Assembly: GCA_012517325.1 (NCBI GenBank)
Contig: JAAYVF010000069.1
Coordinates: forward strand, 1-45,897
Reading direction: 5' to 3'
Length of the DNA: 45,897 nucleotides
Origin: Myxococcales bacterium
Lineage (GTDB): Bacteria > Lernaellota > Lernaellaia > Lernaellales > Lernaellaceae
A model generated the notes under the pieces. The model saw only the letters and a program-made list of their open reading frames with translations, made no database searches and was not told where the DNA came from. The position numbers and the translations under genes were made by a program. Each line of letters starts with the position of its first letter. Positions within the stretch are counted from its first letter, which is position 1. Below, piece by piece: positions 16,121 to 45,897 of the stretch.

Positions 16121-17428
16121 TCAGCGTGACGTGTATTCATCCATACCGATGTCCCAGCCGTTGCCCACGGGACGGAGTTCGCTGTCCCAATCCCGGTCGT
16201 CCAGGTTGCCGTCGTACCAGGGCGTCGGGTCGACCCCGGTGTCGATGCAGGGGCTGCCGGCGGTCAGATGATAATCCCCGTTGGCGAAATCCGCGAAGGC
16301 CGGATCGGCGCTGATGTTGCCGGAGGCCTCCTCGCATCCGAGCCATTCGCAGGCGTTGACGTCGGCGGCCGTCATCTCCGAGTTCACCAAGGCAAGGGCG
16401 TCGCTGCTCCAGAGATCGTTATTGAGCAGATAGACCGAGCTGGAAACCACGTCGACGGCTTCATCACCGTTTTCGTCGAAATAAACGATGTTGTTGATCA
16501 TGGTCAGCGTGCTGCCGTCGACCGCGACCCCGTAGTCCGAACCCTCACCGTTGTTGACGATGGTATTGCCGAGGAGATTCAACCGGCTGTCGCGCCAGAC
16601 GTAAATACCGAAGGAAGTGCCGCTCGACGTGCCGCCGTTCAGCACGCAGTTGACCAGGGTCAGATTGGCTTCGAACATGACGTAAACCGCCGCCGTCAGC
16701 GCGGCGTTGCCGCCGTTGATGGTCAGCCAGGAAAGGGCGACGGACTTTTCGTGGGCATAGTTGGTGATGTAGACCCCGATGTCGGTGGCGGCGTTGATCC
16801 GCGTCGGCCCTTTGCCGCCGCGTTCCCAGGTTTCGTCACTGTAACCGCCGTGAATGGATACTTTCGTTTCGATGTATTCGGTGTAGTCGCCGACCGCGAC
16901 GAAGACGGGCAGGTTCGAGGCTTGGGCGACCTCGACGCCGGCGTCGATCGTTTTCATCGGTGCTTCCATGGTGCCCGGATTCAGATCGTCGCCGCTGGGC
17001 GCCACGAAAATGCCGGTGTCGTTCGCGGGGATCAAATCCGCGCCGTCGCAGTCCTCGTCGATATCGTCGGTGGGCAGTTCCGCCGCGTCGGGGTTGGTCA
17101 GAAAGTCGGCATCGTTGCAATCGGTATGGTCATCGACCCATCCTTCCGGACAGGTGTCTGCCTGGAAGTCCTGATCAACCTCGGCATCGCCGAAGCCGTC
17201 GGAATCGTAGTCCCGATAACAGGCAATTTGATTGTCGTCGTTGTCATTATCGTCGTCGTCATCGTCGCCGGCGTCGTTGTCATCGTCGCCGTTGTCGTCG
17301 TCGGACGCGTCGTTATCGTCATTGTCGTCGTTATCATCGTCATCGTCGTCGCAGGCGCAGCCGGCGAGGGTCGTCAGCACGGCAAGAAGTGAAGCCGCAA
17401 AGACCATAAGCCAATATAGATTCCTCAT
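16121..17428 (-). CDS. Asp/Asn-linker lipoprotein with right-handed beta-helix domain
   Basis: The protein has 435 residues from MRNLYWLMVF. A longer frame begins at 17464, but the shorter start gives a proper signal peptide ending L-A-G-Cys24. Residues ~26-66 are the Asp/Asn run. A short Cys-containing calcium-type repeat follows (DCNDAD...NPDAAELPTDDIDEDCDG), as in MopE-like metal-binding segments. From about residue 135, IFVAPSGDDLNPGT opens a DUF1565/parallel beta-helix domain with repeating LTLVNCVLNGG, LLGNTIVNNGE and INNIVYFD rungs. Similar proteins bind or cleave polysaccharide, but no catalytic residues can be assigned here. It is probably displayed on the surface. Confidence 0.87.
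   Translation of the reverse strand: MRNLYWLMVFAASLLAVLTTLAGCACDDDDDDNDDNDDNDASDDDNGDDDNDAGDDDDDDNDNDDNQIACYRDYDSDGFGDAEVDQDFQADTCPEGWVDDHTDCNDADFLTNPDAAELPTDDIDEDCDGADLIPANDTGIFVAPSGDDLNPGTMEAPMKTIDAGVEVAQASNLPVFVAVGDYTEYIETKVSIHGGYSDETWERGGKGPTRINAATDIGVYITNYAHEKSVALSWLTINGGNAALTAAVYVMFEANLTLVNCVLNGGTSSGTSFGIYVWRDSRLNLLGNTIVNNGEGSDYGVAVDGSTLTMINNIVYFDENGDEAVDVVSSSVYLLNNDLWSSDALALVNSEMTAADVNACEWLGCEEASGNISADPAFADFANGDYHLTAGSPCIDTGVDPTPWYDGNLDDRDWDSELRPVGNGWDIGMDEYTSR
17231..17350 (-). repeat. Low-complexity GAY/AAY codon tract (Asp/Asn linker)
   Basis: Runs of GAC, GAT, AAC and AAT codons on the minus strand encode the linker of the beta-helix lipoprotein. The next lipoprotein gene, divergent from this one, has a similar tract starting at 17818, so the two form an inverted pair about 470 bases apart. 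Confidence 0.9.
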
Positions 17429-17700
17429 TTTTGCCTTTTTTGGCAGCCCGAGGAAATAATTCATGGTTGGCGATATTCAAGATTGCTCAGGATTGAAACC
17501 GTTGCCGCTTTTTCTTTTATATCAAAAAGGTTCTTTGCGTTGCAGCCTTTGCTTGCGGGAAAATAAATCACCTATTCAAGTCAATAATATCGCTCAATAA
17601 TTTAATGCCGGCGTATTTGTATCTGTTCGTTATTTGGTTTATCATTTATGAAGTTTCGTTTAATATTTGAGGGACAGGATTCGCAGAAGGGGAAATGACC

Positions 17701-20319
17701 ATGCAGCGCAGGCTTTATTTGACCATATTGCTGTTGTTGTCGCTCGCACTGGGACTGGCGACGATAAGCGGTTGCCGCGGCGATGGCGATGACAACGACG
17801 ATGACTCCTCGCCCGCGGACGACGACGATGATGACGACGACAATGACGATAACAACGACGATAACGATAATGATGACAACGACGATAATGACGATAACGA
17901 TGACGACGATAACGATGACAACGACGACAACGACACTCCGGTGACGACGGCAGGCTTTGCGTATATTCCGGCGGGTGATTTCTACATGGGCAGTCCCGAA
18001 TCCGAAACCGGCCATCGGTCGAACGAGGTCCGGCATCTGGTCACGCTTTCCCGCCATTTCGAAATGAAAAACACCGAGGTGAGCCAGGGCGAGTTTCTGG
18101 ACGTCATGGATTTCAACCCCAGCCACTTCCCCAACTTCGGCGCGGATGAAACCTTGCCCGTCGAAACAGTGAGCTGGTTCGACGCGCTGGCCTACACCAA
18201 CCGTCTTTCCGAAGATTTGCAGTACGCCCCTTGCTACGTGCTGGCCGAGATCATCTGCACCGATGAAACGGCCGGCGACACGCAAACCTACTGCGCGGAA
18301 CATGGCGGCATCGCCGACGCCGCCGTCACCCTGAACGGCGAGGATTCCGTTTACGAGTGCGAAGGTTTCCGGCTACCGACCGAGGCCGAATGGGAATACG
18401 CGGCCCGCGCCGGAACGACGACCGCCACTTATGCCGGCGACCCGACGCTGATCACCTGCGAGCCGGTCGATCCGCTGCTGGATGGGATCGCCTGGTATTG
18501 CGGCAACTCCAAGAAGCAGACCCACCCGACCGGTAGCGGCAAAGCGGCCAACGATTGGGGTTTGTTCGATATGCTCGGCAACGTCGCCGAATGGACCTGG
18601 GATTGGTATCAAAACGATCTAGGCGGCGCGGCGACCGACCCGGAAGGGCCGAGCGACGGCCATTTCCGCGTCGTGCGCAGCACACCATACCGCTGGCTGG
18701 GGGCGGCGCGGACGCGGGCCGCCTATCGCACCGGCCACACGCCCGATTACCGGCTTCACCTGATCGGCCTCCGGCCCGTGCGCACTTTGCCCGCGGATGC
18801 CCCGCGGCTAATGCCTTCTCCCGTCCTCGCGGCGCCGATCGCGGTATCCTTGCCGAAGGCGGCGACCGACTGGCCCGATGAACTGCCGTTCGCGTTCACC
18901 CGGCCGGCGGTCGGCGATCCGCTGACGCCCGAGGAGATTTCAACCTTCACGGAAGCCGTCACTAATTTTTATGCGACCAGCCAATTCTTCCCCCGCATGT
19001 TGTGGGTCGGCCACGGGATGAGCGAGGACAACGGGCAGGGCTGGCCCGACTACAAATTGCAGGTTCAGGACGTGACGTTGACCAAGAGCGAAGGCGTGGT
19101 GACCTTCACCCACACCGGCCCGTCCGACAACCTGATGATCAGCACCGGCCGGTTGTTCAACAACGTGGCCGCGCTCTACCTGGCTTCCGGCGACGCCACG
19201 ATGCGCCGGATTCTGGTCACCCATTCGAAAGGCATCAAGGCCTTGATCCAGGGCATGACCTTTACCGCCGACGATCCGGAGCCTTTTCTGATGCCGCGCA
19301 CGCCGTTCCCTGCCAATCACGCCTATACCGAGGAGGGCGGCCGACAGATCGTCGTCAATTACGACCCGGTCAAGCAGTACCGGTTCGATTGGAACGGGTG
19401 GACGATCCCCAACGATTACAATCCGTATTTCGGCCCGATGTGGATCCGCAACATGCGCAGCAAGGATGACGTGCCGCACATCTATCGCACGATTCCCTTG
19501 CTGATGCGTCTTTCGACCGACGCCCCCGACCAGGATGTCCGCGACGCCGCGGCCGAGGCGCTGGAATACCTGGTCGGCTTCACCCGCGATATCGTCGAGA
19601 CCGGTTATTACATCCGCACCAAGGACGAATGGGGCAATACGTTCATCCCGATGAACATGGACTATCCCTTCCTGGTCAACGACCTGGCGACATTCGAACT
19701 CTACACTGATCTGGTGCCCAGCGCCGAATGCGATCCGCGTTTGGCATCGGCGTTGATCGCCTACGGCGAGCCGCTGGGAGTCGATTGCGGCAACGGCATC
19801 GGCTGGATTTACGAGGTCATCGCGGCCTATCAGCATTACTTCAATTGGGCGATCATTCGCTATTTCCACATCGCGGCCGCGCACCAGGCTTTGATGACGG
19901 GAAACAACGACATCGCTTACGACTTGCTGACGGGCCTGACGCGTCGCGCCGACGACATGATGGAAGGCTTCGGCAACTGGGAAAACAGCCTCGACTACGT
20001 GCCGGATCAGGCGGCGTTTTTGCTGGCCGCGGCGACCGTGGGGTTGCCGCTGACCGATGCAGAGGCGCGGTTGATCCAGGAGCAATACACAACGGCCGTC
20101 ACCCATTACTCCGCCTGGGCTTATTGGGATCCGTGGGATCCTTCGGTCCCCGACGGCGAGATTCCTTTCCGGCCGGATCGCGCGATTTCACCCGAGGAAC
20201 GGGCCGTGCGGTGGGAGGATATGTCGTTCCTGCTGGAATATTGCTATTCGCCGTTCCGCAATCCGGCGGGCGCCCAAGTAGTGGATTGCGACGTGATTCT
20301 CGATCCGGAGCAGTGGTAA
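17701..20319 (+). CDS. Asp/Asn-linker lipoprotein: FGE-sulfatase-like domain fused to a large helical domain
   Basis: The protein has 872 residues. AAGGGGAA lies eight bases before the ATG at 17701, so I prefer it to the ATG at 17695. The lipobox is I-S-G-Cys25, and residues 26-79 are Asp/Asn-rich. Residues ~80-365 match the formylglycine-generating-enzyme/SUMF1-like fold: FAYIPAGDFYMGSP, NTEVSQGEF, PVETVSWFDALAYTNRLS, RLPTEAEWEYAARAGT and LFDMLGNVAEWTWD. The usual R-G-G-S-W is replaced by RSTPYRW, so catalysis like true FGE is doubtful. The remaining ~500 residues are unassigned and helix-rich (EALEYLVGFTRD, IRYFHIAAAHQALM), possibly an alpha/alpha-toroid. This domain combination is unusual. 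Confidence 0.85.
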   Translation: MQRRLYLTILLLLSLALGLATISGCRGDGDDNDDDSSPADDDDDDDDNDDNNDDNDNDDNDDNDDNDDDDNDDNDDNDTPVTTAGFAYIPAGDFYMGSPESETGHRSNEVRHLVTLSRHFEMKNTEVSQGEFLDVMDFNPSHFPNFGADETLPVETVSWFDALAYTNRLSEDLQYAPCYVLAEIICTDETAGDTQTYCAEHGGIADAAVTLNGEDSVYECEGFRLPTEAEWEYAARAGTTTATYAGDPTLITCEPVDPLLDGIAWYCGNSKKQTHPTGSGKAANDWGLFDMLGNVAEWTWDWYQNDLGGAATDPEGPSDGHFRVVRSTPYRWLGAARTRAAYRTGHTPDYRLHLIGLRPVRTLPADAPRLMPSPVLAAPIAVSLPKAATDWPDELPFAFTRPAVGDPLTPEEISTFTEAVTNFYATSQFFPRMLWVGHGMSEDNGQGWPDYKLQVQDVTLTKSEGVVTFTHTGPSDNLMISTGRLFNNVAALYLASGDATMRRILVTHSKGIKALIQGMTFTADDPEPFLMPRTPFPANHAYTEEGGRQIVVNYDPVKQYRFDWNGWTIPNDYNPYFGPMWIRNMRSKDDVPHIYRTIPLLMRLSTDAPDQDVRDAAAEALEYLVGFTRDIVETGYYIRTKDEWGNTFIPMNMDYPFLVNDLATFELYTDLVPSAECDPRLASALIAYGEPLGVDCGNGIGWIYEVIAAYQHYFNWAIIRYFHIAAAHQALMTGNNDIAYDLLTGLTRRADDMMEGFGNWENSLDYVPDQAAFLLAAATVGLPLTDAEARLIQEQYTTAVTHYSAWAYWDPWDPSVPDGEIPFRPDRAISPEERAVRWEDMSFLLEYCYSPFRNPAGAQVVDCDVILDPEQW
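17818..17935 (+). repeat. Low-complexity GAY/AAY codon tract (Asp/Asn linker)
   Basis: An almost uninterrupted run of GAC, GAT, AAC and AAT codons, about 39 codons, the longest pure tract in the window. Confidence 0.9.
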
Positions 20320-43092: not shown

Positions 43093-44462
43093 TCGTCCTC
43101 CCGCGGCACGTTCAACCCCAGGCTTTTCATTTTGCGATGCAGGTTGGTGCGTTCGATGCCGATCGCCTCGGCCGTCTTGGTGATGTTGCCGCCGTTCTCG
43201 TCGAGCTTGCGGCGCAGGAATTCACGTTCGAACTGCGCCTTGGCCTCGCGGTAGTCGGGCACGGCGAACAGGTCGTCGGGCTCTTCCGGTTGGACGGCCT
43301 GCAGCTTGATCGCCTGGCTGACGTGCGCCGCGGTCACCGATTCGGCGCGGGTGAGGATGACTAGGCGTTCGACGATGTTTTTCAGTTCGCGGATGTTGCC
43401 CGGCCAGTCGTATTCCATCAGCCGGGCGATCGCCTCGGGCTCGAAGTCGCGCGGCGGCAGGCCCGACCGGACGCAGAAGGCCTTGGTGAAGAAATCCACG
43501 AACAGCGGAATGTCTTCCTTCCGTTCGCGGAGTGGCGGCACCTGCAGCGGAATGACGTTGAGCCGGTAGTACAGATCCTCGCGGAAGCGGTTCGCGGCGA
43601 TCTCCTGTTCCAGGTCTTTGTTGGTGGCGGCGATGACCCGCACGTTGACGGGGATCAGTTCGCGCCCGCCGACCCGCTCGAAATGCTGTTCCTGCAAAAC
43701 GCGCAACACTTTGGCCTGCGTTTTGAGGCTCATGTCGGCGATTTCGTCCAGGAAGATCGTGCCGCCGTCGGCCAGGTCGAACTTGCCGCGCCGCCGCTCG
43801 GTGGCGCCGGTGAAGGCGCCTTTTTCGTGGCCGAACAATTCCGACTCGATCAATTCGTCGGGAATCGCGGCGCAATTCACCTCGACGAACGGTTTTTGTG
43901 CCCGCTTGGACTGCCGGTGGATCTGGCGGGCGACCAGTTCCTTGCCGGTGCCGTTTTCACCGGTGACCAGCACCCAGCTATCGGTCGGCGCGGCGAGGGC
44001 GATCTGTTCGCGCAGCGCCAGAATCCGCGGGTGACCGCCGATCATCTCGTACTTGGCCTCGATCCCTTCCTTGAGGTGGCGATTCTCTTCCTCCAGCCAG
44101 ATCAAATCCATCACGCGGTGGACCGTCAGCATGACGTCGGAAAGCGAGAGCGGTTTTTCGATGAAATCGTAGGCCCCGAGCTTGATCGCCTTGACCGCGG
44201 TTTCGACGTTGCCGTGCCCGCTGATCATCACCACCTGCAGGGCCGGGTACATTTCCTTCAGGCGGGCCAGTGTCTGCATGCCGTCGATGCCGGGCATCCA
44301 GATGTCGAGCATGACCAGGTCGGGCCGCTCCTGCCGCACGTATTTCAACGCCTCCTCGCCGGAAGCCACGCCGTGAACCAGAAAACCTTCGTCCTCCAGG
44401 ATGCCGCTGAGCGTCTCCCGGATATCCGGTTCATCGTCGACGATGAGTATTCTTCTCTCCAC
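43089..44462 (-). CDS. NtrC-family sigma54-dependent response regulator
   Basis: The protein has 457 residues. I use the GTG at 44462 (GTGGAGAGAAGA), preceded by GAGG, giving a receiver that starts RRILIVDDEPDIRE; an upstream in-frame extension is less likely. The phosphoacceptor is Asp53 (LVMLDIWMPG), and the receiver ends with DFIEKPLSL. The AAA+ domain (~135-370) has Walker A GENGTGKE, the sigma54 contact loop GAFTGA, Walker B GGTIFLDEIAD and an arginine finger region FREDLYYRLNV. The C-terminal Fis-like helix-turn-helix is NITKTAEAIGIERTNLHRKMK. It activates sigma54 promoters. It heads a long housekeeping operon. Confidence 0.96.
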   Translation of the reverse strand: MERRILIVDDEPDIRETLSGILEDEGFLVHGVASGEEALKYVRQERPDLVMLDIWMPGIDGMQTLARLKEMYPALQVVMISGHGNVETAVKAIKLGAYDFIEKPLSLSDVMLTVHRVMDLIWLEEENRHLKEGIEAKYEMIGGHPRILALREQIALAAPTDSWVLVTGENGTGKELVARQIHRQSKRAQKPFVEVNCAAIPDELIESELFGHEKGAFTGATERRRGKFDLADGGTIFLDEIADMSLKTQAKVLRVLQEQHFERVGGRELIPVNVRVIAATNKDLEQEIAANRFREDLYYRLNVIPLQVPPLRERKEDIPLFVDFFTKAFCVRSGLPPRDFEPEAIARLMEYDWPGNIRELKNIVERLVILTRAESVTAAHVSQAIKLQAVQPEEPDDLFAVPDYREAKAQFEREFLRRKLDENGGNITKTAEAIGIERTNLHRKMKSLGLNVPREDE

Positions 44463-44565
44463 GAACACCTCTATTTCTTGAGCGAATTCGAATGACTCAT
44501 TGTAGCAGATTTGCAACACTTGGCTAGCCGAAAGAGTATCGTTCCTCGCGGGTCGAAAATGGCGC

Positions 44566-44678
44566 GGATCGCTTCGTTTATTCCGCCCCTTCAGGGCGGA
44601 CGTTACTTCCTCTCGATTCCTGGGGTTTCCACCCCAGGCTGAAATATTTCGCCCCTCCGGGACGATCGGCGATCCGCC
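44566..44678 (+). repeat. REP-like multi-hairpin repeat, copy 1
   Basis: This 113-base unit differs from copy 2 (45542-45654) at only two positions. It contains CCGCCC-CTTCA-GGGCGG (44583-44599), CCTGGGGTTTCCACCCCAGG (44619-44638) and CGCCCCTCCGGGACG. It lies between the NtrC-type gene and the Asp/Asn lipoprotein gene. The rest of the gap 44463-44766 shows nothing else. Confidence 0.9.
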
Positions 44679-44766
44679 GAAGGCCGCTTCGGCGACATAT
44701 CAACGAAATATTAAGGCGGCACGAAAAATCACCTCACCTTCCGCGCCGCGCCGACATCCATCTCCG

Positions 44767-45333
44767 CTATTCCGCTACCGTCACGATATCGAGCAACAAC
44801 CGATTGCTGTGCGTCGCGCAGTCATTCGAGATTTCCAGAAAGTAGGGCGCGCCTTCGCCGTTGAGGAAGATCGAGGGGTCCACCTTGAAAATTAACGGTT
44901 CTCCTTTTTCGGTATAACACATACTGGGAATGCCCATCGGGAACGACTCATCGGTTATCGTGCCCTCGGTCTTGTCCAAGCAATAGGATTCTCCATTCTT
45001 CACGATGAAGATATGTCCGCCGCATAATTGGTTCCCCGGATAAGCGAACTCAATGGCAAAAGTCAAATTCGCCTCCAGGCCAATACTGACCGGTTGATTG
45101 ACCGGCGACCCGTCAATCAGGATACTCACGCCATTCAGGTGGGGTTGCCGATCAACCGCTGTTCCACATTCTGGATAATTGTACCCTTCGCAATGTGCCC
45201 CTTCGAAAAAATCGACCGAGCCCTGACCACTATCATTATCGTCGTCATCGTTATCATCCCTGTTGTCGCACATCAGCAACGAGATCGAGCAAAGCAACAA
45301 CGAGGCAAGCAATAAGAAGGTTTGTGCTTCCAT
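44767..45333 (-). CDS. Asp/Asn-linker lipoprotein of unknown fold
   Basis: The protein has 188 residues from MEAQTFLLLASLLL; GGAGTG six bases upstream supports this start. The hydrophobic leader ends L-L-M-Cys22, where Met before Cys makes the lipobox non-canonical, but the Asp/Asn run follows at once (DNRDDNDDDDND), as in the other family members here. The remaining ~150 residues are beta-rich with six Cys (EGAHCEGYNYPECG, NQLCGGHIF, ESYCLDK, SMCYTEK, NDCATH), fit for disulphides outside the cytoplasm. No domain is recognised. The gene is flanked on both sides by REP-like repeats. Confidence 0.8.
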   Translation of the reverse strand: MEAQTFLLLASLLLCSISLLMCDNRDDNDDDDNDSGQGSVDFFEGAHCEGYNYPECGTAVDRQPHLNGVSILIDGSPVNQPVSIGLEANLTFAIEFAYPGNQLCGGHIFIVKNGESYCLDKTEGTITDESFPMGIPSMCYTEKGEPLIFKVDPSIFLNGEGAPYFLEISNDCATHSNRLLLDIVTVAE

Positions 45334-45423
45334 CTTTTCACTCCTTTTCAATTTTATGGCCAAACGCCGCGATAGCCGCCGTCGCCGCTTCCCAAGTGTT
45401 TCAAATCTGCCTGCTTTTTTTCT

Positions 45424-45520
45424 CGCCCAAAGGGGGCGTCATATCGTAGCCAGGGGTGGAGTCTGTAGCGGACGGAACCCCTGGAAACAGGCGGTGTCCA
45501 TTTTTCGCCCTGAAGGGGTG
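45424..45520 (-). repeat. Divergent REP-like multi-hairpin repeat, inverted copy 3
   Basis: On the minus strand the order is the same as in copies 1 and 2. A hairpin around CTTCA (45506-45520) comes first, then CCAGGGGT/ACCCCTGG (45450-45457 with 45477-45484), then CT, an ATAT-containing spacer and CGCCC/GGGCG (45424-45438). The middle loop is longer (19 bases). Confidence 0.75.
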
Positions 45521-45541
45521 ACCTATTTCGAAAAGCAGAAT

Positions 45542-45654
45542 GGATCGCTTCGTTTATTCCGCCCCTTCAGGGCGGACGTTACTTCCTCTCGATTCCTGGG
45601 GTTTCCACCCCAGGCTGAAATATTTCACCCCTCCGGGGCGATCGGCGATCCGCC
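45542..45654 (+). repeat. REP-like multi-hairpin repeat, copy 2
   Basis: This copy matches copy 1 at 111 of 113 positions. Both end with GATCGGCGATCCGCC and then diverge. The distance between the two starts is 976 bases, with the lipoprotein gene and inverted copy 3 in between. Confidence 0.9.
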
Positions 45655-45715
45655 ATCGACGGCTGTCCACTCGGCATAAACGCCGTCGCCGAGCCCTCAC
45701 AGGTCCTCGAGGCTG

Positions 45716-45841
45716 TCATCGTAGAGTTGTTGACTGGTTATTTTTGGTTGTTGGAGGGCAAGAATCGTGCCATGCGGCAAAGCCGATCGCGGCGATTGCC
45801 AAACACGGCAACACCAGGAACAGAAGCGACTTACGTGTCAT
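45716..45841 (-). CDS. Tiny exported peptide or frameshifted lipoprotein (41 residues)
   Basis: A strong GGAGGTAAAC ribosome site precedes ATG at 45841. The frame gives MTRKSLLFLVLPCLAIAAIG, a signal-peptide-like start, then FAAWHDSC and a short polar tail to a TGA at 45718-45716. A second frame over the last part would read LALQQPKITSQQLYDDSLEDL to its own stop, which looks more protein-like. So a one-base shift near 45760 is possible. No function can be assigned. Confidence 0.5.
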   Translation of the reverse strand: MTRKSLLFLVLPCLAIAAIGFAAWHDSCPPTTKNNQSTTLR

Positions 45842-45897
45842 GTTTACCTCCAAAGTTGGCACCGAGTGCAAAGAACGAAGAAGATGGAATAAATATA

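Follow-up and report, generated by a model that had tools for sequence, protein, structure and literature searches.

The repeats near the right end of the window, by which we mean the whole analysed stretch of 45,897 nucleotides, are most likely gene-less, REPIN-like derivatives of hairpins-tnpA-hairpins elements, a reading drawn from the linkage of the Rfam family RF01687 (Acido-Lenti-1) to tnpA genes of subclass 1.2 and from the mirrored arrangement of the hairpins. We assign a probability of about 0.78 to their descent from a small IS200-like family whose complete member carries three-hairpin modules mirrored around a subclass-1.2 Y1 transposase gene. As a repeat of REP/REPIN type the sequence is ordinary, and its interest lies in an RNA family of unknown function, Acido-Lenti-1, for which it provides a probable identity.

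Two modules in direct orientation, copy 1 (44566-44678) and copy 2 (45542-45654), both on the plus strand, are 98.23% identical (111/113 nt), lie 976 bp apart and flank an open reading frame at 44767-45363; alignment confirmed the preliminary description of near-identical copies bracketing a lipoprotein gene. Each contains three hairpins in the order C-B-A, located on the plus strand at 44583-44599 (C), 44619-44638 (B) and 44650-44664 (A) in copy 1 and at 45559-45575 (C_R), 45595-45614 (B_R) and 45626-45640 (A_R) in copy 2, plus a short closing repeat, GGATCGC/GCGATCC. When folded as single-stranded DNA both copies beat 200/200 shuffles (z -4.36 and -4.53), and their B and A hairpins match the 46-position, two-hairpin model of RF01687 at 44619-44664 (42.9 bits) and 45595-45640 (39.6 bits), above its gathering cut-off of 37 bits. 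Copy 1 is a solitary right module, and copy 2 the right module of a pair.

The third copy (45424-45521), inverted and divergent with a reversed hairpin order as its coordinates confirm, presents hairpins A_L (45424-45438), B_L (45450-45484) and C_L (45505-45521) on the minus strand, in the reverse of the order seen in copy 2. With its outer end and a linker it makes up the left module of the pair (45395-45541, minus strand), which is common to the copies on contigs C85 and C99 and whose outer limit was set at the point where C99 departs from C69, the window contig, and C85. Three modules do exist, as first described, but the unit is a six-hairpin pair, [A'-B'-C'][C-B-A], formed by copies 3 and 2, with copy 1 as a lone right half. 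Copy 3 is the weak point of this description: it folds at chance level (z -1.42; 20/200 shuffles equally good), hairpin B_L has a long loop containing an inner arm, and the stretch gives no RF01687 match in the window at E<=1. It was recognised by its mirrored hairpin order, by 13-nt inverted arms in common with copies 1 and 2, and by the presence of counterparts in C85 and C99, which yield weak RF01687 matches (19.9 and 19.8 bits). The same region contains 24-nt inverted arms that are 88% complementary (44505-44528 and 45387-45410), which place a reversed copy of the outer left end of the pair 38 bp before copy 1.

Further copies on C85 and C99, together with 13 RF01687 matches above the cut-off in the window genome (G000; 28 at E<=1, from the 150 candidates scored out of 999), agree with the original designation of a REP-like element. 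By sequence, the copies in this genome form three families. Family A, the window type, has right modules on C69 (twice), C85 and C99 and occurs at three loci, each adjoining a lipoprotein paralogue; family B is found on C47, C37, C105, C13, C25 and C104, and family C on C85 near 31.4 kb and on C107. The pairs on C37, C104, C105 and C69 are separated from contig ends by no more than a few hundred bases, so that assembly breaks follow these repeats. Six family B loci (L041, L042 and L044-L047) also carry a second dispersed repeat, approximately GTGCGCCAGCCGGAATCCAC, with at most three mismatches in 6/6 stretches; it is not present in L038 or L039.

Seven genomes were examined for the phylum, the window genome being the sole representative of its genus. 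At E<=1e-3, RF01687 has 16 matches in G000, at least 89 in G005 (150 candidates scored), 18 in G003, 3 in G006 and none in G001, G002 and G004, while three acidobacterial MAGs have 45, 24 and 0. With stricter filters and E<=1e-4, no match was obtained in 38 genomes reached via GcpE loci or in 14 control genomes; at E<=1, four of the 14 controls contain matches, none above the cut-off.

Neighbouring matches less than 300 bp apart are predominantly arranged as outward pairs (34 of 52 in six genomes), the remainder being inward (13) or in tandem (3 and 2). Six of the inward cases are a single palindrome read on both strands and four belong to an 85-bp type of G003, which consequently has a different arrangement. 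All five close pairs in G000 at E<=1e-3 are outward, with a spacing of 160-169 bp, and outward pairs in G005 are mostly spaced by 148-153 bp. Dispersed inverted palindrome doublets, a mark of REP/REPIN elements, are therefore present both in G000 and in the six-genome set. Some G005 pairs (L181, L184-L197) are enclosed by an outer inverted repeat ending in TAGAGCA/TGCTCTA, resembling a TA-ended MITE around a hairpin pair, and TAGAGCA occurs on both sides within one mismatch in 5/15 pairs of this genome. A TA-ended terminal inverted repeat was rejected as the general end, being absent from the tnpA-bearing copies read and from the window.

Across the six RF01687-bearing genomes, 9 of 60 Y1 transposase matches have an RF01687 match no more than 400 bp away, where a uniform spread of matches would predict 0.36 (Poisson 2e-10 under that assumption). 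Eight of these nine genes, plus one weaker case, are of TnpA-Y1 subclass 1.2 (YxxxQxxHH); the linked gene outside the subclass, on C568 of G008, adjoins a stretch of N. RF01687 matches flank two Y1 genes of G005 on both sides. Three outward pairs in the acidobacterial genomes G008 and G009 are 540-607 bp apart, whereas the others there span 131-261 bp, and all three wide pairs enclose a Y1 gene. The plan in these genomes is A'-B'-C' - tnpA - C-B-A; some stems are imperfect, and on C284 of G009 the gene starts about 10 bp past C'. The same plan recurs on plasmid CP012861 of Persicobacter sp. JZB09 (Bacteroidota), where a single RF01687 match reaches 35.7 bits, slightly short of the cut-off. Mirrored modules stand directly beside tnpA on both sides in G005, G008, G009 and Persicobacter, and inspection by eye revealed all six hairpins at seven or more loci (C165 of G005; C829 of G008; C704, C284, C46 and C203 of G009; Persicobacter). 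No tnpA-bearing copy of family A was found.

Classification was carried out on 55 of the 69 Y1 matches listed, namely those having a locus (14 of G003 were left out), and relied on motif and similarity rather than on a TnpA-Y1 tree. On this basis 16 genes belong to subclass 1.2, of which 12 encode the HUH and Y---Q--HH motifs and four (L005, L226, L231 and L239), being broken or truncated, were placed by similarity. RF01687 is linked to 9 of the 16 subclass-1.2 genes, counting L005 on a match of E 0.002, versus 1 of 39 other Y1 genes (Fisher p 1.6e-5); the other seven have no match at the thresholds used. Viewed by eye, 18 of 19 subclass-1.2 genes are accompanied by module-like hairpins on one or both sides, weak in L221, L223 and L239 and restricted to the upstream side in L099; the Bernardetia gene (L267) shows other repeats. 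Inverted flanks also occur at other Y1 genes (e.g. L006, L009, L236), and mirrored flanks alone are hence not specific to the subclass. The proteins are about 140-158 aa long when whole, contain WQ and mostly DH[IV]H, and one searched against Pfam matched Y1_Tnp with 80.6 bits. Among 43 further genomes, a subclass-1.2 profile hit G038 strongly (E 1e-50) and gave eight weaker matches, spread over five genomes, which showed no Y---Q--HH in the stretch displayed. Downstream of the G038 gene lies a three-hairpin module, even though RF01687 finds nothing in that genome. G006, with three RF01687 matches, yields no subclass-1.2 match at 1e-10. Several G003 loci (L076, L082, L086, L090 and others) hold near-identical IS200-type transposases, full and partial, with a common hairpin set downstream.

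A link to a Y1 transposase, raised in the preliminary description, is supported for the family, but not through an intact gene of this subclass in the window genome. The only subclass-1.2 gene detected there, which sits with family C, is broken: one stop falls at the expected position of the catalytic tyrosine, and there are others. For families A and B, this assembly (96.75% complete) contains no intact transposase gene of their own. The copies in this genome are therefore probably relics.

Counting one tie, the left flank finds its best match in its own right flank at 11 of 13 loci; the observed mean left-right similarity is not reached in any of 10000 permutations. Hairpin B retains pairing in 120/120 cells over 15 chosen sequences, with six of its eight pairs varying, most of these sequences having been found by a structure model that favours pairing. 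The trinucleotide GCT after hairpin B, equivalent to AGC before B on the other strand, is invariant in the 15 sequences. The two ends of a locus change in concert. The Acido-Lenti-1 'RNA' is probably formed by hairpins B and A, on the outer side of a module that serves as a transposon end. We also judge it fairly likely that Acido-Lenti-1 as a whole, rather than being an RNA gene, represents the ends of a distinct class of single-strand transposons. Such elements would have three hairpins at each end and a subclass-1.2 TnpA dedicated to them, would exist both as autonomous copies and as gene-less pairs, and would span at least three phyla; their ends and transposase would change in concert, so that each tnpA would have a hairpin code of its own.

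The best placed of the alternatives, though improbable, is that Acido-Lenti-1 is a genuine small or regulatory RNA whose copies spread passively. Rfam classes RF01687 as an sRNA gene, the table of Weinberg 2010 lists the motif as a probable RNA that is not cis-regulatory, and a 2026 paper, which describes its function as little known, places it 3' of two Tannerella proteases and suggests a role in their regulation. The pairing changes in hairpin B, moreover, fit RNA as well as DNA. Outward pairs at fixed spacing, mirrored copies around tnpA and concerted ends, however, are what is expected of transposon ends, and the promoter-like sites in 44400-45897, searched for the sigma-70 type only, lie outside the modules. 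None of the papers found by our literature search describes a function for Acido-Lenti-1. The search, which covered sources other than subscription journals and preprints, returned no passage in the text available that ties Acido-Lenti-1 or RF01687 to a transposase; nor does any title or abstract opening among the RAYT/REPIN, TnpA subclass 1.2 or Rfam/REP papers it retrieved make that link. No relevant paper on Tannerella repeats was found.

The neighbourhood of the repeats bears on a second alternative. The frame between copies 1 and 2 (44767-45363, minus strand) has no Pfam match; we take it to be lipoprotein-like from a lipobox read by eye. Its two close paralogues, on C85 (57%) and C99 (54%), each adjoin a family A element, and five weaker matches follow at 28-32%. 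To the right, the 5' part of a gene on the minus strand, gene 1 (45652-45897), is cut at the right end of the element and is longer in C99. A short minus-strand frame before the lipoprotein gene (45354-45398) ends in GVWP-stop, comparable to the GIWP-stop of a protease-like gene in C99, and is a possible remnant of that gene as read by eye, automatic local alignment having picked another 16-bp match. Gene 1, the protease-like gene (a weak Peptidase_M43 match, below cut-off) and the lipoprotein gene stand in a row in C99; in C69 and C85, gene 1 ends at the right end of the element, and past its other end comes what looks by eye like the last protease-like codons. At the position of the pair, the central part of gene 1 and the bulk of the protease-like gene seem absent, which is most simply read as loss of the stretch between two elements. 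Because the pair sits at an apparent deletion junction, recombination between the copies is plausible, and it may also have given rise to the cassette. The signal-peptide-like start of gene 1 is out of frame with the reading frame that follows it in C69 and C85 (L038 11000-11737, L039 4800-5060, window 45650-45897), and in C99 too, judged by the identical first 141 bp, consistent with an old frameshift or recoding. Low-complexity repeats at about 1325-2300 and 17230-17950 of the window also occur in Asp/Asn-rich ORFs elsewhere in the genome.

On that second alternative, the window copies would only be by-products of segmental duplication and recombination of a lipoprotein cassette, never mobile themselves. 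Family A was found at three loci, each beside a lipoprotein paralogue, and every one of the ten 50-bp bins between 45350 and 45849, gene 1 stub included, shows 92-100% identity between C69 and C85, compared with 58-86% in bins inside the ORF. Because this near-identity spans 500 bp and includes a gene stub, segmental duplication or recombination appears a better explanation than independent recent transposition, and duplication of the neighbourhood suffices for this pair of loci without the recent spread initially proposed. Copy 1 lies at the edge of a duplicated block, and gene conversion or recombination could each account for it. The same architecture nevertheless recurs in families B and C, and with other sequences beside tnpA in G005, G003, Acidobacteria and Bacteroidota, which makes this account, second among the alternatives, likewise improbable; it may describe the last steps in the window, not the origin of the family. 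In G006, of the same family as the window genome, a regulator-GcpE block 76% identical to that of the window ends at window position 44471 with an unrelated gene beyond, and G004 keeps regulator, GcpE and ProS. The copies are hence neither confined to the window nor set in a gene order kept by all relatives, the two circumstances held at the outset to speak against a REP-like element. C69 and C99 end in the same sequence, an assembly fork, and a chimeric contig is therefore possible.

That the hairpins are transcription terminators or mRNA stabilisers is very unlikely. Copy 1 does lie downstream of the lipoprotein ORF and upstream of a regulator gene, and such secondary effects of REPs are reported in PMC3733652, but this proposal leaves the pairs and the tnpA linkage unexplained, and neither of the two terminator-like sites in 44400-45897 (shuffles average 1.6) falls in a module. 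Terminators and promoters inside the modules were sought across that interval and none was found. Finally, group II introns, with which public descriptions associate the motif, are hardly credible as its source, the reverse transcriptase family RVT_1 giving three matches in two of the six motif-bearing genomes (C11 of G000; C7 and C46 of G005), none on a contig with a motif match among those listed at E<=1e-3. The phrase 'group II intron' is absent from the main text of Weinberg 2010.

In the complete transposon favoured here, the three hairpins of each end stand in mirror order around tnpA. If it works as IS608 and the REP/RAYT systems do, the transposase would recognise the hairpins while the DNA is single-stranded, guided by the conserved bases next to hairpin B, and would cut one strand and rejoin the ends; a gene-less pair could be mobilised in trans, in the manner of a REPIN or MITE. 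We infer both single-strand cutting and movement in trans from these parallels. Today the copies in the window genome would act, if at all, as recombination sites.

If this interpretation is correct, Acido-Lenti-1 loci annotated as 'ncRNAs' are better regarded as the ends of mobile DNA. It gives a testable identity to an Rfam family that has been listed as RNA without known function since 2010 and that a 2026 paper still invokes to suggest gene regulation. A transposase subclass tabled without any REP also gains a DNA partner, and the three-hairpin end would pose a new recognition problem for Y1 transposases.

The elements share a number of features with known systems. As in the REPIN/REPtron systems with RAYT (PMC2817692 and PMC3116915), palindromes occur as inverted doublets, mirrored copies flank the gene and gene-less doublets are dispersed. 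Each end, however, has three hairpins instead of one REP; TAG/CAG-C(C) stands beside hairpin B, and the GT[AG]G tetranucleotide of REPs was not found at the hairpin foot; and the linked genes encode a subclass-1.2 enzyme with Y---Q--HH, not a class 2 enzyme with the Y---NP of RAYTs. The TIRtrons and TIRYTs of Di Nocera 2013 (PMC3733652) likewise place a Y1 gene from Acidobacteria between inverted repeats, some of them self-complementary and dispersed, but Quentin 2018 (PMC6006769) assigns 20/26 TIRYTs to subclass 2.1. In IS200/IS605 (IS608), the nearest solved structure to a subclass-1.2 protein is ISHp608 TnpA (E 9e-5), with the differences that several hairpins are present per end here and that gene copy number is low. 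The likeness to RF01687 covers sequence and two-hairpin structure over the full model, which is read here as DNA, the outer part of a three-hairpin transposon end. The transposases themselves agree with subclass 1.2 as presented in Quentin 2018 in Y---Q--HH, DH[IV]H in most, WQ and size; that source tables the subclass as 'no' for REP and as mainly from Cyanobacteria and Bacteroidetes, whereas modules flank most of the genes viewed here and the subclass is also present in Acidobacteria and the phylum of the window.
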